The position numbers and the translations under genes were made by a program. The notes under the pieces are model-generated. The model made no database searches. It was not told where the DNA came from and was given only the letters and a program-made list of their open reading frames with translations. Positions 18,261-46,087 of a stretch of DNA of 64,000 nucleotides are shown in pieces. The DNA is from Actinomycetes bacterium (lineage in GTDB: Bacteria > Actinomycetota > Thermoleophilia > BMS3ABIN01): contig JAJYOG010000002.1 of the NCBI GenBank assembly GCA_021785935.1, positions 1-64,000 on the forward strand, written 5' to 3'. How positions within the stretch are numbered: the first letter of the stretch is position 1; every line of letters begins with the position of its first letter.

Positions 18261-18288
18261 TTTCCGGCATTATGCATTCCTGTCCAGT

Positions 18289-20061: not shown

Positions 20062-20077
20062 ATGTCGTCAGGACCGC

Positions 20078-21145: not shown

Positions 21146-22166
21146 TTTGTCCCCTGTCATCCCGGCACGACTCCCGTTTGACCGCATAGACCGTCATCGC
21201 CGACGAGCGGCTGGTGCCGTTCACGGCCCGGCGATAATATGAAAGCAGCTTCGTCATTACGCGATCCACGATCGTCGGATTGTGAATAACATCATTCTTG
21301 CTCCCGAGCCGCCGCTCCTTGAAATATTGCCAGTTCATCTGGCAGTAATAAAGTGGGGTCTCATAAACAGTCTCCGCCACACAAAAACCGGCAGTCGCCA
21401 GCAGTTTGGCAATTGAATCCGGAGTGAAGCTGTACAGGTGCCTGGGAAGCTCGTAGATAAACCAGTCGCGGCCCAGCCAGCGGGCTTCAGGAGCCGCCGC
21501 GTTCTGCGTGTATATAACCAGCAGCGCGCCATCGGGAGTGATGCGGCTGATCTCTTCAAGCGTGTGGCGGGGACTCTGCACATGCTCGAGCACGCCCCAA
21601 AGTGTGACAACATCGAAAGATTCGTCGGGAAATTTTGCGTCTTCCAGCTGACCGGTCACGGCGTCGATGCCGACGTCCTTCACCAGCTCAACCATCCGCT
21701 CGTTATAATCGACTCCGGCAACGTCCCAGCCGCACTGCTTCATGAAGTAAAGGAAGGAGCCATCGCCGAATCCGATATCCAGCAGCCGGCCGCTATCACG
21801 ATATCTGTCGATATGTCCCTTGCGCGGGCCCAACAACCGGCCGAGCTCATCCATGCTTCGATCTTTTAGACCCGCCGCCTTGTTGTAAAGGTCGTAATCA
21901 TCCTGGGGATAAAAACGGGCCATCTCTTCATAGGAGGGTCGCGGGTTAACGAAAACCAGTCCGCAATCCTGACACCGTACCAGCGGAAACTCGCCCTCGA
22001 TGCCAAAAAGCCGGTCGCCGCCCACAAAAAGGAGTTCGTGATGGGTGCCACCACACAGATCACAGGCGCCGGTCCGCGCACCATGGCCGGCTCCCACGTC
22101 CTGGCCGTTTTGCACGCCCCGGTTCGATTGGCTGGCGGCGCCGGCTGCGTCCTGTCTGGGACTCAC
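21132..22166 (-). CDS. Class I SAM methyltransferase with N-terminal zinc ribbon
   Basis: CDLCGG...VRCQDCGLVFVNPRPSYEEM; LLDIGFGDGSFLYFMKQCGWDVAGVD; GTG start overlaps the upstream TGA. Confidence 0.9.
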   Translation of the reverse strand: MSPRQDAAGAASQSNRGVQNGQDVGAGHGARTGACDLCGGTHHELLFVGGDRLFGIEGEFPLVRCQDCGLVFVNPRPSYEEMARFYPQDDYDLYNKAAGLKDRSMDELGRLLGPRKGHIDRYRDSGRLLDIGFGDGSFLYFMKQCGWDVAGVDYNERMVELVKDVGIDAVTGQLEDAKFPDESFDVVTLWGVLEHVQSPRHTLEEISRITPDGALLVIYTQNAAAPEARWLGRDWFIYELPRHLYSFTPDSIAKLLATAGFCVAETVYETPLYYCQMNWQYFKERRLGSKNDVIHNPTIVDRVMTKLLSYYRRAVNGTSRSSAMTVYAVKRESCRDDRGQNAEA

Positions 22167-23113
22167 TTCCAACCCTTCCCCGCCGGATACCAGACGTTGC
22201 GGGTATAGGCCCAGTAATTGCAATCGCGGCAGAGATCGATCTCATTCCAGCGTCCCTGCTTGTGAAGATCACGATAACGTTTGAATTCGGGGCTGTTCCA
22301 GACTTCAGCGATCGTCTGCTGGTTCAGATCCCCGATAATGCCCAAATGATCGAAGTCGACATTGCAGAAGCTGACCTTGCCATCCCAATTGATGGAAAAA
22401 GAATTCCACAGGAAAGTGCAGGGATAGCGTTTTTTCGGTAGCTGCATCAAGCTCTGCACCTCGGGCCTGTGACCTCCCCAATTGATCGCCGGGATCAACA
22501 GCACGTCCACTTCGTGAGGGCCCCACTGCTCGCGGAATAGACCGATCTCGTTTTTAGTCTCCGCCATCACGATCAGCTGCACCTTGACCTTCGGCCAGAC
22601 GAAGCCTCGCTCCTTGCGCATGGCCAGAAAGCGCTCGATGTTGGTGATGACTTCGTCATATTTAGTCGAACCGCGTACCTTTTTGTAGGTCTCCGCGGTA
22701 GCGGCATTGACGCTGAAAAGGAGAACGTCCAGCTTGGAATTGAGGATCTTCTCAGCCTTTTCCTCGTCCAGAAGCAGGGCGTTGGTGTCCATGTTGAGTA
22801 GCGTACTCGGCGCCGCCGTCTTGATGCGGTCGATGAGCTCGAAAATGTGTGGCGCCTTCAGAGGCTCGCCGTCCTTGTGTAGACGCACTTCGGCCGGGGC
22901 GAAGTGCGAGATCTCCTCGGCCAGCTTGTCGAACAGCGCCATGTCGATCTCACCCACCGGGCGTGTCAGATCCTTGCGCGGGCACATGTTGCAACGCAGG
23001 TTGCACTGGTTGGTGGGCTCGATATTGATGCGTGACGGAAAGCCGGGATTGACCTCCTGTGAACGCAGGGCTTTATCCTTGACGAGCGTTTTGGCTGTAG
23101 ATTTAAGCGACAT
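22163..23113 (-). CDS. Radical SAM/SPASM protein
   Basis: NIEPTNQCNLRCNMCPRKD; C-terminal FCNVDFDHLGIIGDLNQQTIAEVWNSPEFKRYRDLHKQGRWNEIDLCRDCNYW. Confidence 0.93.
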   Translation of the reverse strand: MSLKSTAKTLVKDKALRSQEVNPGFPSRINIEPTNQCNLRCNMCPRKDLTRPVGEIDMALFDKLAEEISHFAPAEVRLHKDGEPLKAPHIFELIDRIKTAAPSTLLNMDTNALLLDEEKAEKILNSKLDVLLFSVNAATAETYKKVRGSTKYDEVITNIERFLAMRKERGFVWPKVKVQLIVMAETKNEIGLFREQWGPHEVDVLLIPAINWGGHRPEVQSLMQLPKKRYPCTFLWNSFSINWDGKVSFCNVDFDHLGIIGDLNQQTIAEVWNSPEFKRYRDLHKQGRWNEIDLCRDCNYWAYTRNVWYPAGKGWK

Positions 23114-23178
23114 ATGTATCCATTATAGTAATAGCATTGGAGCTTCCGCCAGGTCAGCCTGACTGCTTGGCCTGATGC

Positions 23179-24129
23179 TTAGGCCTTCCGGCTGTAGGAC
23201 TCGATCATGATCCCCTGCCCCAGCTTCGGTGTAATCTTGGCCGCGGGAGCAATAACGGCTTTACGCAGGACACGATCGAACCTGGATGAAGGAAAAACCT
23301 TGCCCCGGCGGTTCTCGATGCTGCGTTCGGTGACGAAAGCAGCTCCATAATGCAAGAGGCCTTCCTGTCTGAAATCATTTTTTCCCAAAAGCCTTCCCAG
23401 GGTACCTGGCGAAAAGTGCCATACATGCCTCGGTGCTTCGACGTTGAACCAGTGCGGGCCGAACAATTTTGCTTCCCAGCAATCGATATTGTGGGTCTGC
23501 ACTACCAGCAGCCCGTTATCTGCCAGGTGCTCGTGGCATCGTTTCAGACAGTCGTTGGGATCGTCCAGATCTTCGATCACCCCATAGAGGGTGATGCAGT
23601 CGTATTTGCCGCCCCAGTCCTGTTCGTGTTCGGCGCCTCCCTTGACGTCGAGCCCCAGCTGATCGCGTGCGTAGGCAGCCACGTTTTCGTTAAGTTCGAT
23701 GCCGCCAACCTCCCAGCCCCGGCGTTGCATGCCCAACATGAAATAGCCGTCACCACAGCCGACATCCAGAAGCTTGCCCGGACGCTGACGCCGGTTGATC
23801 TCGTTTATCTGAGTGGAGAACTTCGCGATGCGCTTGTCCGCCTGGGCGCGCTTGCGGCCGAGCGCCCAATCAAACAGGGGATAAAGATCGGAAAAAGAGC
23901 GCCGGCGCTCTTCAAAAGCAGGACGCGGTGACATGCGCAGGGTGCCGCAATCAGGACAGCGGACGATGCGATATTCCTCGACCGACCCAAGGAGAGTATC
24001 TTTCACTTTCCACCATGGACGTGAGAGGGCGCTACCGCAGACAGCACAATCAACTACCGTTTCGGCTTCTTCAAACGTGGGAAATTCCGAATCCGTCAAC
24101 GGGCTTTCCGTATTTTCGGTATCAGCCAT
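23179..24129 (-). CDS. Class I SAM methyltransferase with N-terminal zinc ribbon
   Basis: CAVCGS...VRCPDCGTLRMSPRP; LLDVGCGDGYFMLGMQRRGWEVGGIELN. Confidence 0.92.
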   Translation of the reverse strand: MADTENTESPLTDSEFPTFEEAETVVDCAVCGSALSRPWWKVKDTLLGSVEEYRIVRCPDCGTLRMSPRPAFEERRRSFSDLYPLFDWALGRKRAQADKRIAKFSTQINEINRRQRPGKLLDVGCGDGYFMLGMQRRGWEVGGIELNENVAAYARDQLGLDVKGGAEHEQDWGGKYDCITLYGVIEDLDDPNDCLKRCHEHLADNGLLVVQTHNIDCWEAKLFGPHWFNVEAPRHVWHFSPGTLGRLLGKNDFRQEGLLHYGAAFVTERSIENRRGKVFPSSRFDRVLRKAVIAPAAKITPKLGQGIMIESYSRKA

Positions 24130-24132
24130 GGA

Positions 24133-25581
24133 TTATTTCCCGCCGCCACGGCGTTTTTTAAGTTGCCACTCGATCGGGACCCGGAAATCCCGCTTGCCGA
24201 CACGCCAGGACGCCAGTTTGTGCATGGACCGGTAGGCGTAGCCCTTCGGCCCACCGGCGGCCATCTTCTGCTTGAGTTCCGGCCCCGGCGAGGCAAAGGG
24301 CATATAGAAATCGATAATCATGTCAACTTTTTCCTTGTAGACGGGATCGACCCAGGGCGTGTGCAGCCTGGTCAGGTCGAAGTCAGCCCAGCCCTCGAGC
24401 GTTTCCGGTGGTTTGAAACCCAGGCGCACCGCCTCGTCATAAAGAGGCGCTCCCGGATACGGGGCAAAGAAGAAACCGTGCACCTCGAAATTTTCGTTGA
24501 TCGCCTTGATCCCCTCGATCATTCGCAGCGTGGCTTCGATATCCTTTTCCGGCTCTCCAGGAAATCCGAACATGGTAGTGAAGCGAGCGATGATTCCCAG
24601 CCGGTCGCAGATTCTCGATACATGCAGGGTGTCATCCACGGTAGTCTGCTTGCCGATCTGCTCCAACGCCGCCTGCGAACCCGATTCGGCTCCCAGCAAC
24701 AGGCGCCGGCAGCCCGCGTCGTAGACCAACTGCCTCAACTCAGCGGGAAAATCGATGAACTGCTTCGTCCGCACATCGGCCGCCCATGTAAACTTGAGGC
24801 CCCGCTCGATTATTTTCTCGCAGATGGCATGAACCCGTTTTTTGCTCACAAAAAAATTGGTGTCGGCGAAATCAATGGCGTTGACGCCGTAATCATTGAC
24901 CAGGCGCTCGAGGTCATCGACAACGCGTTCGGGCGAGAAACCAACCCAGCCGCGTCCGTACATCGAGGTCTCGGCGCAAAACCCGCAACCGAAGGGACAG
25001 CCCTGTGAGGAAAAATATTTCATGGTTCTGGTGCCCAGATCCGGCACCATGTACTTCTCAATGTCGATGATGTCATATGGCGTGGACGGAAACTGGTCGA
25101 CCTCCAGAAGCTTGGGATGTTCGGTAATCACTGGTTTGCCGTCGACCTTGTAGCATAGCCCGGTGATTCCTTCTGGAGATGTTCCGTCACGCAGACATCG
25201 CGCCAGTTCCGTAGCCGCAATCTGGCCCTGGCCGCGGATAACGTAATCGATATAGTTTTCCGCCAGTGTCTGCTCCGGCAGCATGCTGGCATGGTATCCG
25301 CCCCAGACCACCGGTATATCCGGATAAGCTTCCTTGATCGCACGCGAAACAGAGACAGCATCACTTATCTGCCATCCTGTCATCACCGAGAGCCCTACAT
25401 ACAAGGAACCCCGTGCCGCCGCCAGTATCTTGGGGAGATGAGGATTGATGACGCGGCCATCCACCAGTTCAACCTCGAATCCATCGGCGATTAGCGGCGC
25501 CGCGACGGCCTGCAAGGGCAGAGGAGCCCAGACATTGCTCTCGCGCTTGAGGCGCGGAAATACCAGTGTAACCTTACTCAA
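24133..25581 (-). CDS. Radical SAM protein with N-terminal cobalamin-binding-type domain (BchE-like)
   Basis: VVWGGYHASMLPEQTLAENYIDYVIRGQGQ; SSQGCPFGCGFCAETSMYGRGW; FPGEPEKDIEATLRMIEGI; TTG start. Confidence 0.93.
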   Translation of the reverse strand: MSKVTLVFPRLKRESNVWAPLPLQAVAAPLIADGFEVELVDGRVINPHLPKILAAARGSLYVGLSVMTGWQISDAVSVSRAIKEAYPDIPVVWGGYHASMLPEQTLAENYIDYVIRGQGQIAATELARCLRDGTSPEGITGLCYKVDGKPVITEHPKLLEVDQFPSTPYDIIDIEKYMVPDLGTRTMKYFSSQGCPFGCGFCAETSMYGRGWVGFSPERVVDDLERLVNDYGVNAIDFADTNFFVSKKRVHAICEKIIERGLKFTWAADVRTKQFIDFPAELRQLVYDAGCRRLLLGAESGSQAALEQIGKQTTVDDTLHVSRICDRLGIIARFTTMFGFPGEPEKDIEATLRMIEGIKAINENFEVHGFFFAPYPGAPLYDEAVRLGFKPPETLEGWADFDLTRLHTPWVDPVYKEKVDMIIDFYMPFASPGPELKQKMAAGGPKGYAYRSMHKLASWRVGKRDFRVPIEWQLKKRRGGGK

Positions 25582-25923
25582 TCAAATCGCCCCGATCCGG
25601 TGGGATGTCTCGAAACCGCAAATGAGGATAATCCATTGTGATGCTACATTTAATTTTATAACACCCTTGGCTCCAGGCAAACAAACTGGGTGTAATGTAT
25701 CGGAATTTGCCGGCGCGGGATGAGAAATACTCCAAACCCGTCGGCTTTCTCTCGTGCTCACATGAAAAACGAAAAAAATCCGTAGGGGTAATCCCTGAAT
25801 TATTTAAGAAAATTTGTAGCCGCCTTCGGACCAATGCATCTATATACCCTTATTTGCAGGCATTATATATAAACTATTACGCCTAGATTCATAATATAAG
25901 TATATTAGTATAACCGATTTTGT

Positions 25924-25952
25924 TTGACATGTTCTTATACTAGTAGTATGGT
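25924..25952 (+). promoter_or_regulatory. Sigma70-type promoter: TTGACA, 17 bp, TATGGT
   Basis: Exact -35 consensus at 25924-25929, TATGGT at 25947-25952, in an AT-rich intergenic region upstream of the beta-helix gene. Confidence 0.65.
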
Positions 25953-26057
25953 TCACACACCGCTTTCGGGGATAGATCAGCGTTTACCAACGTGTTTCCG
26001 GATACTATTTCGTGCATGGCACCGTAATCCGCCAAAATGGGAACAAGGGGAGCTTCC

Positions 26058-27449
26058 ATGCGAAAAAGGCTCATCTTCACCGTCTTTATCCTGATCGTTG
26101 AAGCTGCATTCTGCAGCATGGGCGACTTCTTTGTGGAAGAAGCCGATGCGATCTCAAATTTTTACATTCGCGATAACGCCAGTGGCGGCAGCTGCCTGGT
26201 GCTCGGTAATTGGAACAACGTAACCAAGACCTGCACCCTTACCGCGGATATAAACTACGGCAAGATATTAATCGAGAGCGATGGCGTCACCCTCGACGGA
26301 GGCAATCATGTCATGAACGGCGACGGCACCGGTGGCAACAACGACGGTGTGCAACTCAACTCGAGAAGAGGCGTCACCATCAAGAACCTCCGCTCCAACA
26401 ATTACAGGTATGCCGTCAACTTTAATAATTCCCATAATAATACCGTAACCAACATTACCTCGTGGTCAAACGAAGCCTCGGGCATATCCCTCAGTTACGC
26501 GACCGGCAACAAAATTCTCCACAATAACATCAGCAATAACAATTCCGACACGGGCATCTGTATCGGTTATGAAAGCACCGATAACGAGATCCACGGCAAC
26601 ACAGTGGTAGGCTCAGACAGAGGCATTTACCTTCATACCTACTGTGACGGCAACGATATTACGGAAAATACGGTTACGACCGATCTGGAAGCGATCACCC
26701 TGGCCGATTCCGACAGCATGAACACGATAGTCAACAATACCGTCACCTCGAATACCTCGGCAATTTTTCTCGATTATCTCAGCAATGCCAATATAATCCG
26801 GGGAAACACCATCGCGAGCAATGTCCGCGGTTTTGCCCTTGCCAACGGCGCCAGCTTCAACCAGATCTACAACAACAACTTTATCGATAATATTTCCTTC
26901 CAGGCTAACGCCAGTGGCGGCACTGATAATGTCTATAACCTGTCCACCCCCACCGGTGGCAATTACTGGAGCGATTTCGACACCCCGGCCGAAGGATGCA
27001 ACGATGTAAATATCGATGGGTTCTGCGACGCCCCCTACACTTTCTCCGGTGGTCAGGACAATTTACCCCTGGTAAGCAGGAATGGCTGGATCTGTGCAAC
27101 TCCCAGCCTTAGCCTGCAAATGCCGGGTCCAGCTTACTGGGTTGATTTCGATGACTATACAAATGACAAGCTTTCGATCAACTGGTTTATTCGTAATGAT
27201 GGGAGCTCCGTCGCCAAGAATGTGCAGCTGATTGCCAATTATCACAGTAACGATGTAAGTACGATTACGCCACTGCCGCTCAGCTTGGGCAACATCGCCG
27301 CAAATGGCGGCATGGCAAAGGCAACGGTAAAGACCCAGTTGCCTCATGGCACACCTTCATTCCGGAGCTGGGTATTTGTCAAGGCAGAGGACACCTGCAG
27401 CGCGCTCCATTATTATCCCGGACAGCCGCCGCAGCAGCCACCGATATAA
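26058..27449 (+). CDS. Secreted right-handed parallel beta-helix protein (NosD-like) with a C-terminal beta-rich domain
   Basis: Signal peptide MRKRLIFTVFILIVEAAFC; repeated N/H/G-rich beta-helix rungs (HNNTVTNITSWSNEASGISLSYATGNKILHNNIS); SD GGGGAG before ATG. Confidence 0.87.
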   Translation: MRKRLIFTVFILIVEAAFCSMGDFFVEEADAISNFYIRDNASGGSCLVLGNWNNVTKTCTLTADINYGKILIESDGVTLDGGNHVMNGDGTGGNNDGVQLNSRRGVTIKNLRSNNYRYAVNFNNSHNNTVTNITSWSNEASGISLSYATGNKILHNNISNNNSDTGICIGYESTDNEIHGNTVVGSDRGIYLHTYCDGNDITENTVTTDLEAITLADSDSMNTIVNNTVTSNTSAIFLDYLSNANIIRGNTIASNVRGFALANGASFNQIYNNNFIDNISFQANASGGTDNVYNLSTPTGGNYWSDFDTPAEGCNDVNIDGFCDAPYTFSGGQDNLPLVSRNGWICATPSLSLQMPGPAYWVDFDDYTNDKLSINWFIRNDGSSVAKNVQLIANYHSNDVSTITPLPLSLGNIAANGGMAKATVKTQLPHGTPSFRSWVFVKAEDTCSALHYYPGQPPQQPPI

Positions 27450-27490
27450 GGCAGCAGTAGGCACATGACTAGCCAGTGGGGGTACTTGAG

Positions 27491-28915
27491 CTAGGCGTTC
27501 ATCCAGGTTGGTTTCTTGTGCTTGAGGGTGGCGCGGCTGATGAGCTTGCGCGAACCATGCCAGGCCTTGAAGGCCACGGGGTGTTTCTCGAGAAAGTACA
27601 TGATCGGCCACAAACTCCGGCTGCGCGTTCCGAATGCCAGCATCAATTCGCGCAGACGCACCAGGTAGTCACTGGGAAGACCCGGCTGGTTGAGCACCGA
27701 TCCCTTCCAGATTTCCGTCAGCCTCTCGTGATCCTTGCTGATCAGGCCTTCCTTCAGGCAAAAATCGTAAAACGGGGTCCCCTCGAAGGGATAGAAGATC
27801 GTGATCTGGTAAATATCGGGATGCAGAAGGTTGATCAGCTCGAGCGTATCCTGGATAAGGGCGCGTGTTTCCTTGGGCAGCCCGATCATGACAAAGGCAA
27901 AGGTCTTGATGTCATATTTTTTTGCCAGGGCCACGGCGTTGATAACCTCTTCCTGCTTGGTTTTCCGGTTCAACATCTCGCGGCGATACTGCTCGTTGCC
28001 TGATTCCAGCCCGAAGGAGACCGCCCGGGCGCCGGCTCCGGCCAGGAGCCGCATCATCTCATCGCTGGCCGTCTCGGGGCGCGTGCTGAACGAGAACGGC
28101 AGATGGATGTCCTGATACATCTCGCAAAACTCGCGCAGGCGCTTGCGGTTAAGGATGAAGGTCTCATCCACGAAGCGGACGTAATCAATCTGCTTGTCCC
28201 GCCTGAATTTCTCCACCTCGGCGATGATGCGCTTGGCTGATTTTTCGCGATGGTATTTGCCCTTGCCCTTGTATATCTGCTGCATGACCGGGGTCAGGCA
28301 ATACGGGCAGCAGTAGGGGCATCCGCGCGAAGTCTCGAGATCGCCGAAGATCTCTGCTTCGGGACTGAAAACTTTCTGGTAATGATTACGGAAGTGGCGG
28401 TCGTCCCAGATATCCCAGGTCGGCATTGCCAGAATATCCATGTCCTGCACCAGGTCCCGCACATCGTTTCTGTAGATCTCTCCATCCTGTTTCACCCACA
28501 GGTTAGGCATATCGCGAAGATCGGCACCGCTCTCAATGCGATCGATGAGATCGATGAGCGAGGCTTCACCCTCGCCGCGCACGAGCATGTCTACCCGCTC
28601 GTCGGCGATAACTTCTTCGGGGGCGATGGTTGGATGCGGACCGCCGACGACGACAGGCACGCCGGGGTCAGCCATTCGCAGGATAGCTTGCGCGGTCTCC
28701 CATTCGGTGCTGCGGCAGGAGACTCCGATCATGTCGGGTTGGTACTCCTCCAGGGCCTGGCGATAGGCGGGCGCGACCTCATGGTCTTCAAGGAAAGTAA
28801 TGTCCATCAACCGGCAATCATGGCCTTCCCTTTCGAGGGTTCCGGCCAGGGAGCTGAGACCCACCTGCGGAGAGCGGGCGCGCGCGACATTGGGATAGAT
28901 AAATAATATCTTCAT
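27491..28915 (-). CDS. Radical SAM protein with N-terminal cobalamin-binding-type domain
   Basis: MKILFIYPNVARARSPQVGLSSLAGTLEREGHDC; VVVGGPHPTIAPEEV; SRGCPYCCPYCLTPVMQQIYKGKGKYHREKS. Confidence 0.93.
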   Translation of the reverse strand: MKILFIYPNVARARSPQVGLSSLAGTLEREGHDCRLMDITFLEDHEVAPAYRQALEEYQPDMIGVSCRSTEWETAQAILRMADPGVPVVVGGPHPTIAPEEVIADERVDMLVRGEGEASLIDLIDRIESGADLRDMPNLWVKQDGEIYRNDVRDLVQDMDILAMPTWDIWDDRHFRNHYQKVFSPEAEIFGDLETSRGCPYCCPYCLTPVMQQIYKGKGKYHREKSAKRIIAEVEKFRRDKQIDYVRFVDETFILNRKRLREFCEMYQDIHLPFSFSTRPETASDEMMRLLAGAGARAVSFGLESGNEQYRREMLNRKTKQEEVINAVALAKKYDIKTFAFVMIGLPKETRALIQDTLELINLLHPDIYQITIFYPFEGTPFYDFCLKEGLISKDHERLTEIWKGSVLNQPGLPSDYLVRLRELMLAFGTRSRSLWPIMYFLEKHPVAFKAWHGSRKLISRATLKHKKPTWMNA

Positions 28916-28942
28916 GATTCATTCACCTTTTTAAACTTCAAA

Positions 28943-28951
28943 AGTATATCA
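28943..28951 (-). promoter_or_regulatory. Candidate extended -10 (TGATATACT) upstream of the radical SAM gene
   Basis: Between the asnB-like stop (28972) and radical SAM ATG (28915), followed by an AAGGTGA Shine-Dalgarno. Confidence 0.5.
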
Positions 28952-28971
28952 GGGATAAAAGCGCTCGGGCG

Positions 28972-30858
28972 TTACCCATCAATGAAGCTGCGGTTCCAGA
29001 GCTCGAAAATGAGAAGCATCCAAACCTGCCATACACCCTTGCCCGTTTTTTCGTGCCGGTCTACCACTGTCTTCAGATAAGCCTCGTCGAACAAGCCCCG
29101 GCTTCTGGCCTGATCGGAAAATATTATGTCGCGCGCGGTTTCGCGCAGATGCCCCTGCAACCAGGGAGAAGCAGGCGCCGCGAAGCCTGATTTATCACGA
29201 TAAATCGTATCGTGCCTGAGAATCCCCTCACCCATCTTCTTGAGGATGTACTTGGACTCTGTTCCCTGCAGCACTGCATCATCGGACAGGCTGGCGGCAA
29301 ACTCAACAAAATGATGATCGAGATAAGGTGTCCGCGCCTCGACGGCAAACGCCGAGCAGGTTCGATCAAGAATGCGCAGCATATTCGGCATCATGTTCTT
29401 CATGTCCAGATACTGCATGCGATCGATGATCGTACTCGCGGGAGCTGTGGCGAAACCGGTGAGATACCGTTGGTCCGTCGAGTAGCCGCCCAGATCCGCC
29501 TTCAGCTTCCCCGAGAAGAGCTTTGCCTTTTCGGAGGGTTTGAAGGTCGAAACGATACGCAGTGACTTTTCACCCGAAGGCTGCATGATGCTGCCAAGCA
29601 ACCCCTTGATCGTATTCCTGCCAAAGAATCCCATCGTGGCTGAAGCCTGCTTCCAGGCGCCGGCTGGATTTAAGTGTTTAAGTGAACCGGCGAATTTCTC
29701 GCGGATGTCCGCCAGAATGTAGCGGTTATAACCCGCCAGCAGCTCGTTACTACCCTGCCCTCCGAGGACCACTTTGACAAAGCGGGCCGTGAATTCGTTG
29801 AGGATGAAATATGAATGCAGGCCGGGGCTTACCGTAGGTTCGTCCACGTGCCAGATGGCCTTTAACATTGTATCCATGAAGGTTTCAACAGTCGGAAAGA
29901 CCTCGATGGTCTCCTGCCTGACGTTGGCGTTCACGGCCGACTCATTGGCAAAGTCACGCTCGTCGTAGGTTTTTTCCCGGAAGCCTGCGGTAAGGGCGAT
30001 GATATTTTCGCGGTCGGTTCTGGCGGCGAGTGATGTCAGAAAACTGGAGTCGATACCGCCGCTCAAATGGATTCCCAGAGGCGTAACTCCCTCGGATTCA
30101 AGCGCCACGGCCTCCTCCAGAATCGCCAGGCCCCGCTGCTTGAGTTCGTCTTCGTCCCAGGGATGATTAGGCTCGAAATACATGTCCCAGTAGTGTTCGA
30201 TCCGGCCTTTGCCGCCCTCGACGCTGCCGTCCAGCACATACATCGAGCCGGGAGGTACAGCCATGATGTCCTCGAACATCGTCTCGCTGTCAAAGATGTA
30301 GGAAATGCCGAAGAAGTCCGCCATCCCCCTGCTGTTGACCTGCCTTTTAGTCCTGGGATCGGCGAGAATACCCTTGATCTCCGAAGCAAACAACAGGCCG
30401 GAAGCGCCGTGAGAATAATAGAGCGGCTTGATGCCGATCCGGTCACGAGCCAATATCAGGCGCCGGTTGCGGGCATCCCAGAGAGCCAGGCCGTACATAC
30501 CGTTGACACGGTCGAGGAATTTCTCTCCCTCGTCCTCGTATAGATGAAGCAGCACCTCGCAGTCGCTCGAAGTCGAAAACCGGTGCCCTCTCGATTCCAG
30601 CAGCAAGCGCAGCTCGGCGTGATTGAAGACGCGGCCGTCACAGACCAGGGTCAGGTTTCCATCTTCATTTTTTAGCGGTTGGGGAACAGAGACCGTCGAA
30701 GGGATCTTTAAAAAACAGTGGCTTAACCCTACATTGCCGTCCGTGAAGCTGGAGCGGTCATCGGGTCCGCGGTGAGCTATCGCCGCCAACAGAGGGGTCA
30801 GCTCTTCTTCAGTTACAACGGAGGTTGGTGATTTGAGGATACCGGCTATGCCACTCAT
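28972..30858 (-). CDS. Asparagine-synthase-like protein with degenerate glutaminase domain (MSGIAG; Cys2 to Ser)
   Basis: AsnB architecture (HRGPDD, DRIGIKPLYY, LSGGIDSSFLTSLAA) but Ser2 replaces Cys2, CDGRVFN replaces the YNGEIYN motif and GSNELLAGY replaces GSDELFGGY. Confidence 0.9.
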   Translation of the reverse strand: MSGIAGILKSPTSVVTEEELTPLLAAIAHRGPDDRSSFTDGNVGLSHCFLKIPSTVSVPQPLKNEDGNLTLVCDGRVFNHAELRLLLESRGHRFSTSSDCEVLLHLYEDEGEKFLDRVNGMYGLALWDARNRRLILARDRIGIKPLYYSHGASGLLFASEIKGILADPRTKRQVNSRGMADFFGISYIFDSETMFEDIMAVPPGSMYVLDGSVEGGKGRIEHYWDMYFEPNHPWDEDELKQRGLAILEEAVALESEGVTPLGIHLSGGIDSSFLTSLAARTDRENIIALTAGFREKTYDERDFANESAVNANVRQETIEVFPTVETFMDTMLKAIWHVDEPTVSPGLHSYFILNEFTARFVKVVLGGQGSNELLAGYNRYILADIREKFAGSLKHLNPAGAWKQASATMGFFGRNTIKGLLGSIMQPSGEKSLRIVSTFKPSEKAKLFSGKLKADLGGYSTDQRYLTGFATAPASTIIDRMQYLDMKNMMPNMLRILDRTCSAFAVEARTPYLDHHFVEFAASLSDDAVLQGTESKYILKKMGEGILRHDTIYRDKSGFAAPASPWLQGHLRETARDIIFSDQARSRGLFDEAYLKTVVDRHEKTGKGVWQVWMLLIFELWNRSFIDG

Positions 30859-30873
30859 AGGCCGGCTGAAAAA

Positions 30874-30890
30874 TCATCTGAGGCAGATGA
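30874..30890 (-). other. Hairpin (7-bp perfect stem, 3-nt loop, then UUUUU) just upstream of the degenerate asnB-like gene
   Basis: Minus strand TCATCTG-CCT-CAGATGA-TTTTT, ~15 nt before ATG. Confidence 0.5.
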
Positions 30891-30999
30891 TGGTAAGTTG
30901 GTTTCTCTGATCGTCATCTCGGTGATTAGCACCCCTGTAAACAGCATGGTTGCAGCGTGTTAACGCATATCGCCAAAAAATAATTGTACACTAAAACGC

Positions 31000-32895
31000 T
31001 CAGGCGGAATAATCCGGGCCCTCACCGTCTATGAAAATGCGGCACCACATTTCAAAGGTGACAAGCGACCAGACTCTCCAGATGTCCTTCCTCTTTTCAA
31101 GAGCATTGGTGATTAGCCCGTCGACGGCGCCGCGATTGAAATATCCTCTTCCGGCCGCGGGCCCATCCAGGAGAAAAGTACGGACCTCACCGCCGAGCGC
31201 ACCCGTAAACCAGCTGTCGATCGGGGCCGAAAAGCCCTGTTTGCGCCGGTCGATAATGCTATCCGGCACCTTGCCGCGGGCGACAGATTTTAGTATCAGC
31301 TTGGGGTCGTCACCGCTGACCTTTTCCCGTGAAGAGATGGAAGCGGTCAGCTCGACGAGGCGATGATCGAGGAACGGAACCCTCGATTCGATCGAGTGCG
31401 CCATGCTCATGCGGTCTTCGGTGCGCAGAATGCTCGGCAGCATGTTGTGAAAATCGTTAAACAGCATCCGGTCGATCAGGTCCTTCGAATCGCATTCATC
31501 AAGCGAACGGAAAAATGAAATCATGGGATCGTAACCCGATACCTCGCGCTTGAACTCTTCACTAAACAATCCCGGCAGGCGCCGGGGATGAAAACCGCTG
31601 ACGATTTCGTAAATGCGGCGGCTGTCAGAAGCGTTGAAGCGCCTGAGCTCATTCTTGAGACCGCCCGAGCCATAACGCTTCTTGTACTCCATGAGGCCGT
31701 TGGCCAGATGCAAAAGTCTGCCGCGCCGCAGGGACCCGGCCAGATTGCGTTCCAAAAGTCCCATGCGGTAGCGGGGATAACCACCAAAAAGTTCGTCGCT
31801 GCCCTGTCCTCCCAGCACGACCTTGACTGAAGTGGCTACAAGACCGCACAGGAAGTAATAGGGATACACCCCCGGGCTCAGCGTCGGCTCGTCCATGTGC
31901 CAGATGATCCGGCGCAGGTTGGTCAGAAAATCACTGGGCCCAACCTCGATCTCATGATGGTTTGAACCAATGCTTGCCGCCATTTCCCTGGCGTAGGTAC
32001 GTTCGTCCACCGCCTCCTCCCCGACAAAACCCGCGGAGAAAGTATTGAGGCCGGAAATATACTCATCAGCGATCGACGATACCAGGCTGGAATCGAGGCC
32101 TCCGCTCAGATACGTGCCCACGGGCACATCACTGACCAGGTGGCTCTTGATCGCATCGGTCAGGAGGTCGCTGACGGCATCCGTAAGCTCGATGCCTGCC
32201 AACCGGGTCTTAACCTCGTAGGACGGCCTCCAGTAACGCGTTGCCTGCGGCTTGCCGCTCCCCTCCCAGACCAGCGTATGCGCGGGCAGCAGTTCGCTGA
32301 CGCCACTGAAAGCGGTCCGGCCTTCCTGGATCACGCTAAGGGCAAAGAAGTCGAGAATGGATTGCGGATCCGGGCTTGAAAGCCGCGGCGCCGTCTGCAC
32401 CAGAGCCTTGGCTTCAGAGGCGAAGCGCAGAGCGCCGTCGGCAAAGCTGTAATACAAGGGCTTGATGCCGATGCGGTCCCGGGCGAGCAGCAACCGCTTT
32501 TTATTTTCATCATAGAGAGCGAAGGCAAACATGCCATTGAGCTTCTCGACGCAGGCAGAGCCTTCTTCCTCATACAGATGGATAATGACTTCGGTGTCGC
32601 AGTGGGTCTGAAAGACATGCCCCGCCGCCAGCAGCCGCTCCCTTAATTCCCGAAAATTATAGATCTCGCCGTTGTAGGCAAGCCAGATGGAGCCATCCTC
32701 GTTCGACATCGGCTGATGCCCGTGCGCCAGGTCGATGATGGACAGGCGCCGGTGGACAAACACATAATTTTCAGCCTGGCGGATGCCTTCATCATCCGGA
32801 CCCCGGTGACGGATGATCTTCGCCATTTTCTGAGCCCGGGCAATATCGGTTTCATTGATCCCCCCCGCTCTCACGACGCCGGCGATGCCGCACAT
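31000..32895 (-). CDS. asnB: Asparagine synthase (glutamine-hydrolyzing) family protein with intact Cys2
   Basis: MCGIAGVVRAGG, RHRGPDDEG, YNGEIYNFREL, LSGGLDSSLVSSIA, GGQGSDELFGGYPRY. Confidence 0.94.
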   Translation of the reverse strand: MCGIAGVVRAGGINETDIARAQKMAKIIRHRGPDDEGIRQAENYVFVHRRLSIIDLAHGHQPMSNEDGSIWLAYNGEIYNFRELRERLLAAGHVFQTHCDTEVIIHLYEEEGSACVEKLNGMFAFALYDENKKRLLLARDRIGIKPLYYSFADGALRFASEAKALVQTAPRLSSPDPQSILDFFALSVIQEGRTAFSGVSELLPAHTLVWEGSGKPQATRYWRPSYEVKTRLAGIELTDAVSDLLTDAIKSHLVSDVPVGTYLSGGLDSSLVSSIADEYISGLNTFSAGFVGEEAVDERTYAREMAASIGSNHHEIEVGPSDFLTNLRRIIWHMDEPTLSPGVYPYYFLCGLVATSVKVVLGGQGSDELFGGYPRYRMGLLERNLAGSLRRGRLLHLANGLMEYKKRYGSGGLKNELRRFNASDSRRIYEIVSGFHPRRLPGLFSEEFKREVSGYDPMISFFRSLDECDSKDLIDRMLFNDFHNMLPSILRTEDRMSMAHSIESRVPFLDHRLVELTASISSREKVSGDDPKLILKSVARGKVPDSIIDRRKQGFSAPIDSWFTGALGGEVRTFLLDGPAAGRGYFNRGAVDGLITNALEKRKDIWRVWSLVTFEMWCRIFIDGEGPDYSA

Positions 32896-34358
32896 CAGGC
32901 AACCCTCCCATGCTGGTCTCGATGTTTATGCTCCAAAGCTCTGAGCACGAGCACCGTAGCGCCGTAGACGGCCAGACCGGCCACCAATGAAAAGGCGATT
33001 CCAGCGGATGAAACAACCAGAGCGGCTCCCGTCATGAGGATGCCTCCGATCACGGGCATCGAGAAAGTTCTATAAAGCCGGTGTTGAGCGGCAAAAACAT
33101 ACTTTGACAGCAGGATATAGGTTAGAGCCGACCATAGAGCTGTGGTAACGACCATGGCAACGGCGGCGCCGCGGGGACCATATCTCGGTATCAAGGCCAA
33201 ATCCATGGCGACGATCATCACCGCCGCAAAAGCCGACGTATGAGCCCCTTTTTTCTCCTTGTCGCGAACCGTCAGGGAATTGAAGCTCATGCTCACCAGC
33301 ATCAGGGTTGGAATGGCCCACATTAGAATCCGCAGCGTAACCACCGACTCGGAATAGACGTTCGGCATCAACGTGTCGATGATCGGTCCCGCCAACATGG
33401 TCATGATGAAAGCAACGGCGACCCCGGTGACGCCCGCGAGACGGTACCAGTACCAGCTGGCATACTCGGCCTCAGCCGGATTATCCCGGTAACGGGCGGT
33501 TAATACCGGCAGCAAAGCTCTTGACAGCACAATGGGAACCCAGACGAAAAATGAAAAGAACGAGTAGGCGGCGCTATAGATACCCACATCGGCATCGCCT
33601 CTGATTATCTCCATGATGATTGTGTCAGCGCGGTAATATACCAGTGTTGCCAGAGCGGTCGCCGCAAATGGCAGGGTCCCCCGCCCCACTTTTTTAGTGT
33701 CGTCCCAGGTGAATTTAAATGAGAAGCGGGTGACTTTCGTGATCACATAGCTCATCCTGACCAGACTTTCGATCGCCATGCTGGCCAGGTATGCCCACAT
33801 GACCGCCACGACCGAATATCCAAGGCCTAAAACCGTAAAGCCTGCGACCAGGTATACCAGCCGCCCCAGAATGGCGAATAGCGCCGAGGCGGCAAAATTT
33901 TTTGCGGCGGTGAATATCGTCTCGGTGGTGTAGACAAAAGCCGAGAGGAGGACAGCGCCGAGTCCCAATAACAACACCTGCATTTTCGGTGAGTCCGGAC
34001 GGGCGATCAGAACCACGATCAGCCCCCCGCCCGCCAGCACCACGGAAGTAAAAACCTGCAGGGAAAGAAGAATGCCGACAAACCGGGCCTGGTCTTTTTC
34101 TTCCCGGACCAGAAATCGGGTGCCGTATCTTGAAAGACCAAAATCACCCAGCGAGGAGACCATTTCCACCGTCGCCAGCACAAACGAAAAGACACCAAAA
34201 AGCGACGGGCCGAGCGTTGCGGCCACGTATAGCAGAAAGGGAACCGAGACCACGCGGACGAAGAGCTTCGCCAGCATCAGGTACCCGGAATTCTTAAGAA
34301 CTTCTATGCGACTTAACAAGGCAAGATTCAGCGTAACCTGTTTAGGAACGCGTAGCAA
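32895..34358 (-). CDS. Wzx-like flippase
   Basis: LAKLFVRVVSVPFLLYVAATLGPSLFGVFSFVLATVEMVSSLGDFGLSRYGTRFLVRE; polytopic; TTG start assumed. Confidence 0.9.
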   Translation of the reverse strand: MLRVPKQVTLNLALLSRIEVLKNSGYLMLAKLFVRVVSVPFLLYVAATLGPSLFGVFSFVLATVEMVSSLGDFGLSRYGTRFLVREEKDQARFVGILLSLQVFTSVVLAGGGLIVVLIARPDSPKMQVLLLGLGAVLLSAFVYTTETIFTAAKNFAASALFAILGRLVYLVAGFTVLGLGYSVVAVMWAYLASMAIESLVRMSYVITKVTRFSFKFTWDDTKKVGRGTLPFAATALATLVYYRADTIIMEIIRGDADVGIYSAAYSFFSFFVWVPIVLSRALLPVLTARYRDNPAEAEYASWYWYRLAGVTGVAVAFIMTMLAGPIIDTLMPNVYSESVVTLRILMWAIPTLMLVSMSFNSLTVRDKEKKGAHTSAFAAVMIVAMDLALIPRYGPRGAAVAMVVTTALWSALTYILLSKYVFAAQHRLYRTFSMPVIGGILMTGAALVVSSAGIAFSLVAGLAVYGATVLVLRALEHKHRDQHGRVA

Positions 34359-34414
34359 CTGGGAACATGGTTATGACAAGGTAATAAGCCCCTTATTCCA
34401 CAAAGGTGAGTGGC

Positions 34415-34612
34415 ATGGATTACAAGGAACTGGAAGATTCGCTGAGGGCTGAGGCCGCCATCGTGGCCGGCGAAAAACGCACCTGGAGAGCCGATGAAGT
34501 CTCCCTCCGCATCACTCAGATAGCGGAACAGCTGGCCAGGATCCGCCGGGAGCATGCGGGCGGCATCGATGCGTCAATGGGAAAAAGGTCGGGCTGGAAG
34601 GTTGAGATCTAG
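34415..34612 (+). CDS. Small uncharacterised protein (~65 aa, predicted helical)
   Basis: MDYKELEDSLRAEAAIVAGEKRTWRADEVSLRITQIAEQLARIRREHAGGIDASMGKRSGWKVEI; GC-rich third codon positions; AAAGGTGAG upstream; occupies an otherwise empty gap. Confidence 0.65.
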   Translation: MDYKELEDSLRAEAAIVAGEKRTWRADEVSLRITQIAEQLARIRREHAGGIDASMGKRSGWKVEI

Positions 34613-34623
34613 GGATCGCTGGC

Positions 34624-36111
34624 TCAGCCTTCTGATATTGCCCCGCGCACACCTCGAAGAAGCCACCAGTCCAGAGGCAGGCCCCAATAGTGGTGGCGGC
34701 ACCTGGTCGCGCTGATGCCGCTGGCTGTCTTCACGTAGATGCGGCGTAGCAAGCTGCGCGCGGCCCGGCGATGGACCCATTCCGATGGGTATCCGTAGAC
34801 CAGATAGAATTCGCGCTGCTTCTGGCGATTCTGAAAACTCTTGCTCATCCAGGGGAGCCGGCCTAAAACTGTGCTGAACTTTGCCCACTGCTCGAGCGAC
34901 GCCGGTCCTTGCAGCCCCAGCTCCTCAGCCTTTTGATAGAGGGCGTTCCCCGGCGTCGGCGCATAGAAATGAAGCTGCGAATTATACTCGCCGACGATCT
35001 TGGATACCTGCTCCATCACATCCCAGGTTTCCTCGATCTCCGGCTCTGTTTCGCCCGGAAAGCCAATGATGAAGCTGTAAGAAATCTTGATGCCGTGCTT
35101 GCTCGCCTGACGCGCCGCCTCGAGGATATCCTCGGGCTCGATATCCTTTTGCATCGTAGCCAGCTGCGATTTCGAGCCGCTCTCGGCGCCAACCAGAAAA
35201 GCCCAAAGGCCACTCTTCTTGAGAATGTCAAAAGTGTCATCCGCAAATTTTCCCAGTTGGGGAGCCCGCGCATTGGCGGCCCAGCCGAACTTCATGCCCC
35301 TGTCGATCATGCCCTGTGATATCTCCCGGGCACGCTGCTCCTTGACGAAGTAAGTAGAATCGAAATACATGACCCCGTTAGCCCCCATGAAATCCTTCAG
35401 CCACTCGAGGTCGGATAGCACCCGGTCCGGCGTGTAGGCTTTCCAGGCGCGGTCGTAAACGAGAGGCTCGGCGCAGAACTGGCACCGGGCCGGGCAGCCC
35501 TGGCTGGAAACATAATTAATGGCCCGCGTGCCCACATGCATGTTGTTCAGATATTGTTTGGGATTATCCAGCTTCTCGTATGGCAACCGTGGAAAATTGT
35601 TGATGTCCGCGACGGGACGTGATGGGTTCGTAACCGTCTCACCGTCACGGGTGAAGGTGATGCCGTCGATCCCCGCAAAATCCTCTCCCTGGCTCAAACT
35701 ATCGGCAAGCGCCAGCAAGGTCACTTCGCCCTGGCCGCGCACGACAGCGTCAACATATTGATTCTGGCTGGTCTGCTCCGGCAAAATCGAAGGGTGATAC
35801 CCGCCCCAGACGACCGGCAGCTTCAGGCCGGCCGTGCGCACCGCCTTGGCGGCTTCAAGAGCGTAGTGGATCTGCGGCCCGGTCATGCAGCTGATCCCCA
35901 GCAAAATCGCGTCCCGGCTCTCATCGACAACACGTTGCCGCCAGTGCGGGTCTACGTTGGCGTCTATCAGTTTTACGTCATAACCCGCAGCGAACAGCGG
36001 CGCCGATGCCGCCAGGATCGGCAGGGGAGCCCAGGTCCAGGGATGATAGATCTTCTGAAAATGGTTCCTCGGATAAAGCAGTACTATTTTATTGCTTTTT
36101 GGCATCGTCAT
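34624..36111 (-). CDS. Radical SAM protein with N-terminal cobalamin-binding-type domain
   Basis: VVWGGYHPSILPEQTSQNQYVDAVVRGQGE; SSQGCPARCQFCAEPLVYDRAW; paralogous to 24133..25581. Confidence 0.93.
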   Translation of the reverse strand: MTMPKSNKIVLLYPRNHFQKIYHPWTWAPLPILAASAPLFAAGYDVKLIDANVDPHWRQRVVDESRDAILLGISCMTGPQIHYALEAAKAVRTAGLKLPVVWGGYHPSILPEQTSQNQYVDAVVRGQGEVTLLALADSLSQGEDFAGIDGITFTRDGETVTNPSRPVADINNFPRLPYEKLDNPKQYLNNMHVGTRAINYVSSQGCPARCQFCAEPLVYDRAWKAYTPDRVLSDLEWLKDFMGANGVMYFDSTYFVKEQRAREISQGMIDRGMKFGWAANARAPQLGKFADDTFDILKKSGLWAFLVGAESGSKSQLATMQKDIEPEDILEAARQASKHGIKISYSFIIGFPGETEPEIEETWDVMEQVSKIVGEYNSQLHFYAPTPGNALYQKAEELGLQGPASLEQWAKFSTVLGRLPWMSKSFQNRQKQREFYLVYGYPSEWVHRRAARSLLRRIYVKTASGISATRCRHHYWGLPLDWWLLRGVRGAISEG

Positions 36112-36146
36112 AGTTTACCGGAGTTTCAAGGAGTTCGCTTCCCGCA

Positions 36147-37775
36147 TTAGTCCTTTACCAGTTGAAATATCAGCGTCTCCTGATCGCTTCCAGGGCGGAT
36201 CGTCTTAACCAGCTTCCATTCAGGATGCTCTGAAGAATCATCCAGCAGCCGCACCAGCTCCGGCCTGAAATCGTATATCGCCTGGCGGCCGAGAACTATG
36301 TAATCGACGCCTCTGGACCTGGCGAACGTTGTGAGATGATCGTAATCAGCATATGGAAGTCCAATGGAGACGCCGCCCGAATAGTAGGACGAGGAGGATT
36401 CCCAACGCCCCATAACTATTTTGCCGCTGCCAGCCTCCTGCTTGATCCACTCTCCGGCTTCGCGGTATTGCATGTCGTAGCTGGTACCCAGCAAGCCTCC
36501 GAAAGTGAACAGGATCACCGGCGCCAGCACGGCAAAACCAATCAGCCAGGGAACAAGCTTGCGCCAAAGCTCCCGTCTCGGCCCCCGCAAGCTCAGTGAA
36601 ATCGTCTCAATGCCCCACTGCTCCAGCTTCCGCCAGCCGATGGCCACCAGAATTAGCGCCGGGGGCACAAATGGCATGAAGAAGCGATCGGTTGCGTACA
36701 TGGCCAGGATGATGAGCGCGGGCGACATCATTAAAAAGATGAAGCCGACAGCCGCCGCCCGCCGGCGGTCCCAATCGCGAGCGAATAACCCCAGCCCCAG
36801 TAACATCAGCAGCCAGAGGGGCATGACCCGCGCCAGCTGTTCGGTGTAAAAAACATTGCTTTGATTGACGAAAATCTTGATCGCCTGCTTGGGGTGGAGC
36901 GCCAGATAGCTCACGATGTCATCGCCGCTTTCAGCACGGGCCATCCATGACTCCCTGCCGTCGTCGGTCAGCGCCGATGCCTGTTTTTCCCATTCGAGGG
37001 TTCCATACCGCAGGTTGTGGGTTGCGGTAAAGACCTGCTCGTATGATTCCTTGCCCGTATATGTCCATTTGCCCGTGACGTTATGAATAAACGTGATATA
37101 CGGCAGGGCGAAAATGCTGAAAACAGCCAGAAACAGGACCAGAGGCTTCAGCATCTGTTTAAAGGCGCGTTGCTTCAGTGATACAACCACGGCCAGCCCC
37201 ACGATCAAAAAGATGTAGAAAACGGTGGAAGGATTGACGAGGTACGCCAGCCCCAGGGAAAGCCCAGCCATCGCCGCACACGGCAGCCGGCGCTTGCCCA
37301 GCATCTGCCAGGCAAAGAAGAGAGCCATCATGAGGAAAAAGATGTAGACGCTTTCGCTGTACAGCCGGGAAGAGTAATCGACAAAAAGCGGTATGACCGC
37401 GATGAGCGCAGCCGCCATCAGACCCACCCGCTCACCAATCAATTCTCTGCCGAGCAGATAAGTGGGAATGACGATCAGGGTGCCAAACACAATCACCACG
37501 GCATAACCGGCGATAGCGTAATCCCTGAAGATCATAGACACCGCGGCGATGATGGCAGGGAACAGCGGCGAGAAATGAGCTGTGGCATTGCCGGTGAGGT
37601 CGACAAATCCCTGGCCGTTGATCAGGTTCTCGGCCATCCTGGCATATATCGTCTCATCCAGTTGCAGCATCGGCCGCGTCAGCACCGCCAGGAGCCGCAT
37701 CACGAAAGCCAGGAGGGCGATCATGATGAGAGCCTTTCGCGGCGAAAGCCAGCTCTTCTTTTGCACGTCTTCCAT
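36147..37775 (-). CDS. GT39/ArnT-like membrane glycosyltransferase
   Basis: LLAVLTRPMLQLDETIYARMAENLINGQGF; polytopic; paralogous to the next gene. Confidence 0.9.
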   Translation of the reverse strand: MEDVQKKSWLSPRKALIMIALLAFVMRLLAVLTRPMLQLDETIYARMAENLINGQGFVDLTGNATAHFSPLFPAIIAAVSMIFRDYAIAGYAVVIVFGTLIVIPTYLLGRELIGERVGLMAAALIAVIPLFVDYSSRLYSESVYIFFLMMALFFAWQMLGKRRLPCAAMAGLSLGLAYLVNPSTVFYIFLIVGLAVVVSLKQRAFKQMLKPLVLFLAVFSIFALPYITFIHNVTGKWTYTGKESYEQVFTATHNLRYGTLEWEKQASALTDDGRESWMARAESGDDIVSYLALHPKQAIKIFVNQSNVFYTEQLARVMPLWLLMLLGLGLFARDWDRRRAAAVGFIFLMMSPALIILAMYATDRFFMPFVPPALILVAIGWRKLEQWGIETISLSLRGPRRELWRKLVPWLIGFAVLAPVILFTFGGLLGTSYDMQYREAGEWIKQEAGSGKIVMGRWESSSSYYSGGVSIGLPYADYDHLTTFARSRGVDYIVLGRQAIYDFRPELVRLLDDSSEHPEWKLVKTIRPGSDQETLIFQLVKD

Positions 37776-39434
37776 TTATTTGACCAACTCGAAGACAAGT
37801 GTTTCCGTATCGCTGCCGGGGCGTATTGTCTGGACCAGCTTCCAGTCCGGATGGCTCGTGTCGTCATTTAGCAGCTGCTGGAGTCCCGGGCGCCAGTCGA
37901 CGATGGCCTGACGGCCGACGATCAGGTAATCGACATCCTTGAGGCGTGCATAGCTGGTCGTGCGCTCATAGGTGTCATAGGGGAGAATCACAGCGATGCC
38001 GCCGGCATAATAAGCCGACGAATATTCGCGGTTCATGACCTTCTTGCCCGGGCCCGCGTAATCCTTCAGCCATTGACCGGCGTCTTTATATTGGGTCGGA
38101 TAGCTCTGCTTGAGAACGGTTGCGCCCGCAAAGGCCAGCAGCGGCAGCAGCACCGCCGCGCCGATCACCCAGGGCGCCAGGCTCAGCCAGAGCGCCTTTC
38201 GCTTGGCTGACATGAAAGTGGTCGTAATCGTGCCCTGCGCCCATTCTTCCAATCGAAGCCAACCGGCCGCTGTCGGAATTACGGCGAACGGTATGAACGG
38301 CATGAAGAACCGGGGAAATGCCAGCATCGAAAGGACCAGCAACACAGGCAGCATCATTACCCCAAGATAACCGATGGCAAGGGCGCGCCCGCGATCCCAA
38401 CCGCGCGCGAACAGCCCCAACCCCAGCAGCATCAGCAGCCAGAGCGGAAATACCTGTTGCAGTACCTTCGCGTGCAATTCATATACCTGCTTCACAAAAT
38501 TCTTGGCTGCCTGCAGCGGATAGGAAAGCACGAAATTTACTGGATTGTTGAGCGTCGTATCCTTCTCCAACTCAAGAACTTTGATCTCGGTGCCATCCTG
38601 GTTCAGCGGCAACAGTTCCTTTTCCCAATCCTTGATATCGTCGCGCGGGATGTTGTGAGTCGCAGAATAGGTGTTGCCGGCGATAAATTTGCCACTGTAG
38701 GTCCACCGTCCCAGTTCATGATGCATGTACCAGACGTACGGCGCGGCAAACAGGGAGAAGCATAAGAGAAACAGTCCCACCGGCACAGCCAGCCTTCTCC
38801 ACGAGCCTTTCCTCCAGGCGACAGCAACGGCCAGGATCAGCAGCGTCAGCAGATAAAAAAGACCGGAAGGATTTGCCAGATAAGCGAGTCCCAATGAAAC
38901 ACCCGACAGCACCCCACAGGCCGGCCGGTTTCTCTTAAGCATGGTCCAACCGAAATAAAGCCCCGACAGCAGGAAAAACACGTAGACCGTTTCGGTGTAG
39001 ATGTATTCTGAAGTGCCCACGTAAAAAGGCATGATCGCCATCAGGGCCGCGGCCATCAGACCCACCCGCTCACCAATCAATTCTCTGCCAAGCAGATAAG
39101 TCGGCACCACCAGAAGCGTGCCGAAAATCGCGACGACCACATAGCCGGAGAGAATGTAGTTTTTCAGGATCACGGCGATGGCTGCCATGAAAATTGGCAG
39201 AAGTGGTGAATAGTGTGTGGTGGTCAGACCGCTGATGTCGAGCAGACCATTGCCGGCGGCGAGGTTCTCCGCCATGCGCACGTAAGCGGTCTCATCGAAC
39301 TGAATCATGTGGCGGGTGAACGTCGCCAGAACCCTCACGATCAGGGCCAGCAGCATGATGAGCAGCAACACTCGGCCCGGTGTCAAAAACTTGCGGGCAC
39401 TGGCAGACACTCTTGTGTCTTTCTTTAAATTCAT
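37776..39434 (-). CDS. GT39/ArnT-like membrane glycosyltransferase
   Basis: VLATFTRHMIQFDETAYVRMAENLAAGNGLLDISGLTTTHYSPLLP; tandem paralog. Confidence 0.9.
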   Translation of the reverse strand: MNLKKDTRVSASARKFLTPGRVLLLIMLLALIVRVLATFTRHMIQFDETAYVRMAENLAAGNGLLDISGLTTTHYSPLLPIFMAAIAVILKNYILSGYVVVAIFGTLLVVPTYLLGRELIGERVGLMAAALMAIMPFYVGTSEYIYTETVYVFFLLSGLYFGWTMLKRNRPACGVLSGVSLGLAYLANPSGLFYLLTLLILAVAVAWRKGSWRRLAVPVGLFLLCFSLFAAPYVWYMHHELGRWTYSGKFIAGNTYSATHNIPRDDIKDWEKELLPLNQDGTEIKVLELEKDTTLNNPVNFVLSYPLQAAKNFVKQVYELHAKVLQQVFPLWLLMLLGLGLFARGWDRGRALAIGYLGVMMLPVLLVLSMLAFPRFFMPFIPFAVIPTAAGWLRLEEWAQGTITTTFMSAKRKALWLSLAPWVIGAAVLLPLLAFAGATVLKQSYPTQYKDAGQWLKDYAGPGKKVMNREYSSAYYAGGIAVILPYDTYERTTSYARLKDVDYLIVGRQAIVDWRPGLQQLLNDDTSHPDWKLVQTIRPGSDTETLVFELVK

Positions 39435-39463
39435 GGGGCGGAAAAACCTGTGCGCCCAGGCCG

Positions 39464-40882: not shown

Positions 40883-40918
40883 ATCGATATAACTCCCGTT
40901 TTCAGTCCGGTCATTTGT

Positions 40919-41602: not shown

Positions 41603-41641
41603 TCAGTCACTCCATTTTTCCAAGAATAGCATAATATCAGC

Positions 41642-42742: not shown

Positions 42743-42745
42743 GCG

Positions 42746-43840: not shown

Positions 43841-43865
43841 TCAAGCCATCCGTTCATACTGCTTT

Positions 43866-46021: not shown

Positions 46022-46029
46022 CTTCTGGT

Positions 46030-46038
46030 AGTATAGCA
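46030..46038 (-). promoter_or_regulatory. Candidate extended -10 (TGCTATACT), near-leaderless for the radical SAM gene
   Basis: 8 nt between the -10 end and ATG at 46021. Confidence 0.45.
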
Positions 46039-46087
46039 AGTAATCGGGGCGCGCAAGCCCTTACCCACGCTGTTTTTAAACTGACTT

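Follow-up and report, generated by a model that had tools for sequence, protein, structure and literature searches.

Beta-lactam synthetase (BLS) and carbapenam synthetase (CarA) are natural AsnB relatives that lack the glutaminase Cys, have no working glutaminase and carry out ATP-dependent acyl activation. In AsnB of E. coli, glutamine is held, besides by the Cys nucleophile, by Arg49, Asn74, Glu76 and Asp98 (PMC11296641). At the synthetase site of human asparagine synthetase (ASNS), Asp367 was modelled in contact with the alpha-amino group of the substrate, and the D367N variant keeps a reduced ammonia-dependent activity, whereas D367A and E364Q are inactive (PMC6748925). Members of the AsnB family are also encountered in glycan loci, where WbpS, WbqG and PGN_1234 make uronamides (PMC7468200). 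The papers searched contain no description of a conserved pair of dead and intact AsnB proteins, or of AsnB proteins with a natural Ser at position 2.

The window considered here is the whole stretch of DNA that was analysed, 64,000 nucleotides long. It stems from an uncultured lineage of Thermoleophilia and contains, within a surface-glycan locus rich in B12 radical SAM enzymes, two neighbouring AsnB-type genes, S2 and C2:

28972..30858, minus strand: S2, an AsnB-type protein of 628 aa without glutaminase residues (translation, residue table, Pfam)
30853..30855, minus strand: Ser2 codon AGT of S2, where the Cys nucleophile is expected
30637..30639, minus strand: Asp74 codon GAC of S2 within DGRVFN, where the oxyanion-hole Asn74 is expected
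31000..32895, minus strand: C2, the intact AsnB-type paralogue (MCGIAG, HRRLSI, NGEIYN, GSDELFGGY)

Both AsnB domains are matched in S2 by Pfam (Asn_synthase, 7.7e-70; GATase_7, 1.4e-38). Its N-terminus reads MSGIAG. Five glutaminase residues were examined and four of them are absent (Cys2 to Ser and, in E. coli numbering, Arg49 to Phe, Asn74 to Asp and Glu76 to Arg), which leaves Asp99, the equivalent of E. coli Asp98, as the sole survivor. The original prediction had pointed to AGT in place of the Cys2 codon in MSGIAG, to DGRVFN in place of NGEIYN with GAC at residue 74, to GSNELLAGY in place of GSDELFGGY and to an intact SGGIDSS, all of which hold up on translation. The losses at positions 49 and 76 come in addition, and the glutaminase site is thus more broadly lost than first noted. 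That prediction had also named a start-codon error as one finding that would overturn it. The frame upstream of the ATG is open for five codons only (633 codons in all) and these contain neither an alternative start nor a Cys, so that a mis-called start cannot restore Cys2 and this explanation is rejected; the first Cys anywhere in S2 is C48.

In the synthetase site, the PP-loop SGGIDSS (residues 266-272) is intact and Lys556 corresponds to the essential Lys (E. coli K449, human K466). The segment GQGSNE (residues 367-372) keeps Ser370 and Glu372, Asn371 stands for the Asp of GSDE, and Gln368 stands for the preceding catalytic Glu (human Glu364, E. coli Glu348). Gln368 is common to S2 and C2, which suggests that neither of the two is a genuine asparagine synthetase; Asn371 is found in S2 only. 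S2 scores 369.6 bits against the asparagine synthetase model TIGR01536, above its cut-off of 267.1, so that automatic annotation would call it a glutamine-hydrolysing asparagine synthase, a label that its residues contradict: the N-terminal Cys and the ligands Arg49, Asn74 and Glu76 of class II (Ntn) amidotransferases are missing, and of the TIGR01536 features the PP-loop and essential Lys are present and the substrate-pocket Glu348/364 and Asp351/367 are not. The top NCBIfam model is TIGR03108 (420.8 bits, far below its equivalog cut-off of 816.9), and the lasso peptide/macrolactam cyclase models NF033535 (231.9 bits, cut-off 525) and NF033561 (49.8 bits, cut-off 300) both remain below threshold.

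Among 299 genomes of the class searched, close S2 orthologues are confined to the window's own family, where they occur in 17 of 19 genomes with 63-80% identity, some being partial at contig ends. The orthologues recovered by a scan of GTDB contigs come from metagenome-assembled genomes (MAGs) of Thermoleophilia (e.g., Bacterium BMS3Abin01 and SURF_19); outside these, no match above 32% identity stands among the GTDB-contig matches listed, and no orthologue was found in the viral contigs searched. Ser2, Asp74, Arg76 and Asn371 are present in 16 of the 16 sequences that cover those sites (the window and 15 other genomes), which excludes chance or sequencing error, and each of the 15 full-length sequences uses AGT or AGC for Ser2. 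Gly75, Asp99, SGGIDSS, Ser370, Glu372 and Lys556 are also invariant across the clade, and position 49 varies between Phe, Tyr and Leu. The glutaminase positions are lost in all S2 orthologues but are preserved in C2 and in almost every homologue: the other AsnB homologues readable at position 2 in the residue table all have Cys, with the sole exception of a protein designated L100, and every other homologue readable at the position of Asn371 has Asp.

S2 is under purifying selection, strong in both domains. Close pairs of orthologues give a dN/dS of about 0.05-0.15, and the three closest (L035/L036, L037/L040 and L041/L046) 0.045-0.105. The C-terminal synthetase part has a median pairwise identity of 0.83 within S2 vs. 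0.74 within C2, and the glutaminase domain is about equally conserved in the two (0.67 and 0.70, respectively). Together with the intact frames and the conserved residues, these values lead us to reject a pseudogene or a sequencing error.

C2, which the original prediction had overlooked, lies immediately upstream of S2, with 141 bp between them, and is 36% identical to it. It retains Cys2 and the Arg at position 49, and in 15 of 15 C2 sequences the sites of Ser2, Asp74, Arg76 and Asn371 hold Cys, Asn, Glu and Asp, respectively. In a maximum-likelihood tree, S2 and C2 are sister clades, supported by SH-aLRT values of 99-100, and the stems of both are long, indicative of an old duplication and of S2 as a paralogue of its neighbour and not a relative of BLS; the rows of this tree were sampled with S2 as the query, nearer relatives of C2 may exist, and BLS itself is absent from it. 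The nearest relatives of C2 found outside the family are normal Cys2 AsnBs, 39-40% identical, which bear the motifs DEPFADSS and GDGGDE, the S2/C2 pair having DEPT(L/V)SPG and GGQGS(D/N)E; no S2-like companion was seen in those of their flanks that were examined. All 17 family genomes with S2 also encode C2, in most cases on the same contig and then no more than about 10 kb away. Of the two remaining genomes, G012 (98% complete) has neither gene, consistent with joint loss or with absence of the locus, and G099, a fragmented assembly, has fragments of C2 and no visible S2.

A change comparable to that of S2 is found in L100, an AsnB-like protein from a MAG of the Dysgonamonadaceae:

3730-5733, plus strand (own contig): L100, with MSGIAG, no Arg49, and NGRVFN

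L100, unlike S2, keeps Asn74 and GADE, and its locus, which is of the glycan type, has no intact AsnB next to it. Since it falls far from S2 in the tree, among Cys2 proteins, the sequences indicate that Cys2 and Glu76 were lost at least twice. An NAD-synthase-like PP-ATPase and an acyl-adenylate ligase-like ORF adjoin L100.

The genes that surround S2 and C2 look like those of a cell-surface polysaccharide locus:

15277..62209, no strand assigned: surrounding cell-surface polysaccharide locus (ORF translations and partial family searches, the rest by eye)
32895..34358, minus strand: putative flippase of the Wzx type, adjoining C2 on its upstream side (function by eye)
27491..28915, minus strand: B12-binding radical SAM protein, downstream of S2 (Pfam)
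24133-25581, 27491-28915, 34624-36111, 39464-40882, 44597-46039 and 46893-48266, minus strand: B12-type radical SAM proteins

The locus contains glycosyltransferases, flippases, a polyprenyl glycosylphosphotransferase and methyltransferases, many of them recognized by eye, as well as several B12 radical SAM proteins and a LytR-CpsA-Psr-like protein. An orthologue or paralogue of the flippase stands beside C2 in most loci, according to computed synteny. The radical SAM protein downstream of S2 has orthologues (E<=1e-150, 73-85% identical) in 9 of the 18 other family genomes, i.e., 10 of 19 with the window, usually adjoining S2. At least six B12-type radical SAM proteins are encoded in the locus, three recognized by Pfam and three by eye, and candidate matches number 12-20 per family genome. 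A lone plus-strand ORF (26037-27449) with parallel beta-helix-like repeats, recognized by eye, is convergent to the radical SAM gene next to S2 and is also found beside it in L035 and L036. Two adjacent and similar minus-strand ORFs (36147-37775 and 37776-39434), membrane glycosyltransferase-like and by eye of the PMT/ArnT type, are apparently a tandem duplication. At 842-2368 on the plus strand, upstream of dTDP-sugar genes (2533-6205), a large serine recombinase-like ORF (by eye) perhaps marks a mobile boundary close to the glycan genes.

Starting from the observed residue losses, conservation, purifying selection, pairing with C2 and sister relationship to it, our first choice for S2, because its synthetase site is conserved, is a glutamine-independent, ATP-dependent, carboxylate-activating ligase of the surface-polysaccharide locus. 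We give this reading an even chance; it is also the one favored by the original prediction, which had proposed ligase chemistry without a glutaminase of its own, and the lost glutaminase site and retained PP-loop support it. S2 would be a neofunctionalised duplicate of the neighbouring amidotransferase C2, in which the Ntn glutaminase domain would still fold and, its residues having been lost, would no longer bind or hydrolyse glutamine. The synthetase domain would bind MgATP and adenylate a carboxylate, and the acyl group would then pass to an amine or hydroxyl of the substrate or to free ammonia, in no case to a nucleophile from its own glutamine site. Judging by gene context, the likeliest carboxylate would be a uronic or other acid on a surface glycan or lipid-linked precursor, in keeping with the sugar acid put forward in the original prediction.

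Against the ligase speaks the synthetase site itself, where Asn371 replaces an Asp universal among readable homologues and Gln368 is the residue of the inactive human E364Q variant, though C2 has the same Gln. With the glutaminase residues gone as well, both domains might be inactive, and S2 might persist in the role of a scaffold or regulator or be heading for loss. Such a dead protein is the least probable of the readings, and a very remote one: both domains are under purifying selection, the PP-loop and Lys556 are invariant, and the synthetase part is more constrained than in C2. Since human D367N keeps reduced activity, Asn371 is not by itself a sign of a dead site; it probably reshapes the pocket for the substrate, and a different substrate is a likelier meaning of this residue than inactivity. 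The idea, drawn from BLS, that it represents a lost Mg ligand is weakened by the modelled contact of human Asp367 and by the activity of D367N. Ser2 and Asp99 are also troublesome for the ligase, their invariance being needless in a merely structural N-terminal domain. With Asp74 and Arg76 fixed too, the N-terminal domain could have turned into a Ser-type Ntn enzyme, hydrolase or transferase, that uses a new donor, removal of Met exposing Ser1 as in Ser/Thr Ntn hydrolases and Asp74 and Arg76 lining a new pocket. In favor of this are the contrast between these fixed residues (and Gly75) and the drifting position 49, the exact N-terminus MSGIAG with its N-terminal strand in the AlphaFold2 model, and the recurrence of MSGIAG with NGRVFN in the independent Bacteroidota protein L100. 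Fixation is nevertheless weak evidence, since roughly 36% of the columns in the N-domain do not vary anyway; an acidic Asp74 makes a poor oxyanion hole, and the papers searched report no class II amidotransferase whose nucleophile is naturally Ser. We regard Ser-type Ntn activity as improbable.

AsnB of E. coli is a dimer, and the chief rival of the ligase reading is a heteromer in which S2 is the obligate pseudo-glutaminase partner of C2. C2 would release ammonia from glutamine, and S2 would contribute another synthetase site, a face that binds the substrate, or regulation; the two chains together amount to 1259 aa. Heteromers of an inactive homologue and an active enzyme have precedents (PMC13060819). 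The two proteins are sister paralogues, and their constant pairing, including their joint absence from G012, could mean that S2 never acts alone, a point against the ligase. However, genes that are physically linked in one locus would tend to co-occur anyway, other genes separate S2 from C2 in several contigs, and G099 has fragments of C2 without S2. On balance, the heteromer is somewhat unlikely. A broader proposal, a two-gene AsnB system in which C2 delivers the glutamine-derived ammonia and the glutaminase-dead S2 brings its own synthetase site or Ser-Ntn chemistry to bear on a glycan acid, we hold to be doubtful; if true, S2/C2 would be a heteromeric AsnB or a Ser-nucleophile enzyme resembling class II amidotransferases. 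The conserved dead/intact sister pair offers a natural experiment in how an amidotransferase drops glutamine chemistry while the fold stays.

Returning to the ligase reading, comparison with known systems suggests where S2 would stand. The AlphaFold2 model (26 sequences; mean pLDDT 93.2, pTM 0.92) shows two complete domains and the Ntn strand at the N-terminus, and Foldseek places TsnB9 nearest (TM 0.76-0.77), followed by E. coli AsnB, human ASNS and then BLS/CarA. This ranking argues for an AsnB/TsnB9-like fold, most likely with an independent loss of the glutaminase residues. AsnB (E. coli 1CT9; human ASNS) and S2 share the two-domain fold, domain order, PP-loop and essential Lys, but AsnB has Cys1, Arg49, Asn74 and Glu76, none of which S2 retains; Glu348/364 and Asp351/367 are Gln and Asn in S2, whose chain is also longer and varies in a stretch around 381-475. 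The hydroxyamidotransferase TsnB9 (7YLZ), the best PDB match by sequence and fold, is, as S2 would be, an AsnB-type enzyme outside asparagine synthesis; it has Cys-Gly at the position equivalent to Ser2 and takes nitrogen from a glutamyl donor, whereas the donor site of S2 is gone. The uronic-acid amidotransferases WbpS, WbqG and PGN_1234 and the XrtA/PEP-CTERM enzymes of TIGR03108 are AsnB-type proteins of glycan loci as well but, unlike S2, possess a glutamine site. S2 resembles BLS and CarA in lacking the glutaminase Cys and having the PP-loop, a link already drawn in the original prediction. BLS and carbapenam synthetase (1JGT, 1MB9, 1Q15) are more distant in fold (TM 0.53-0.58), and S2, unlike them, groups with an adjacent intact AsnB and retains the MxGIxG N-terminus. 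Derivation from BLS is thus unsupported, and the loss in S2 looks independent. As a ligase, S2 would represent one more family among the few AsnB relatives known to activate a carboxylate with no need for glutamine.
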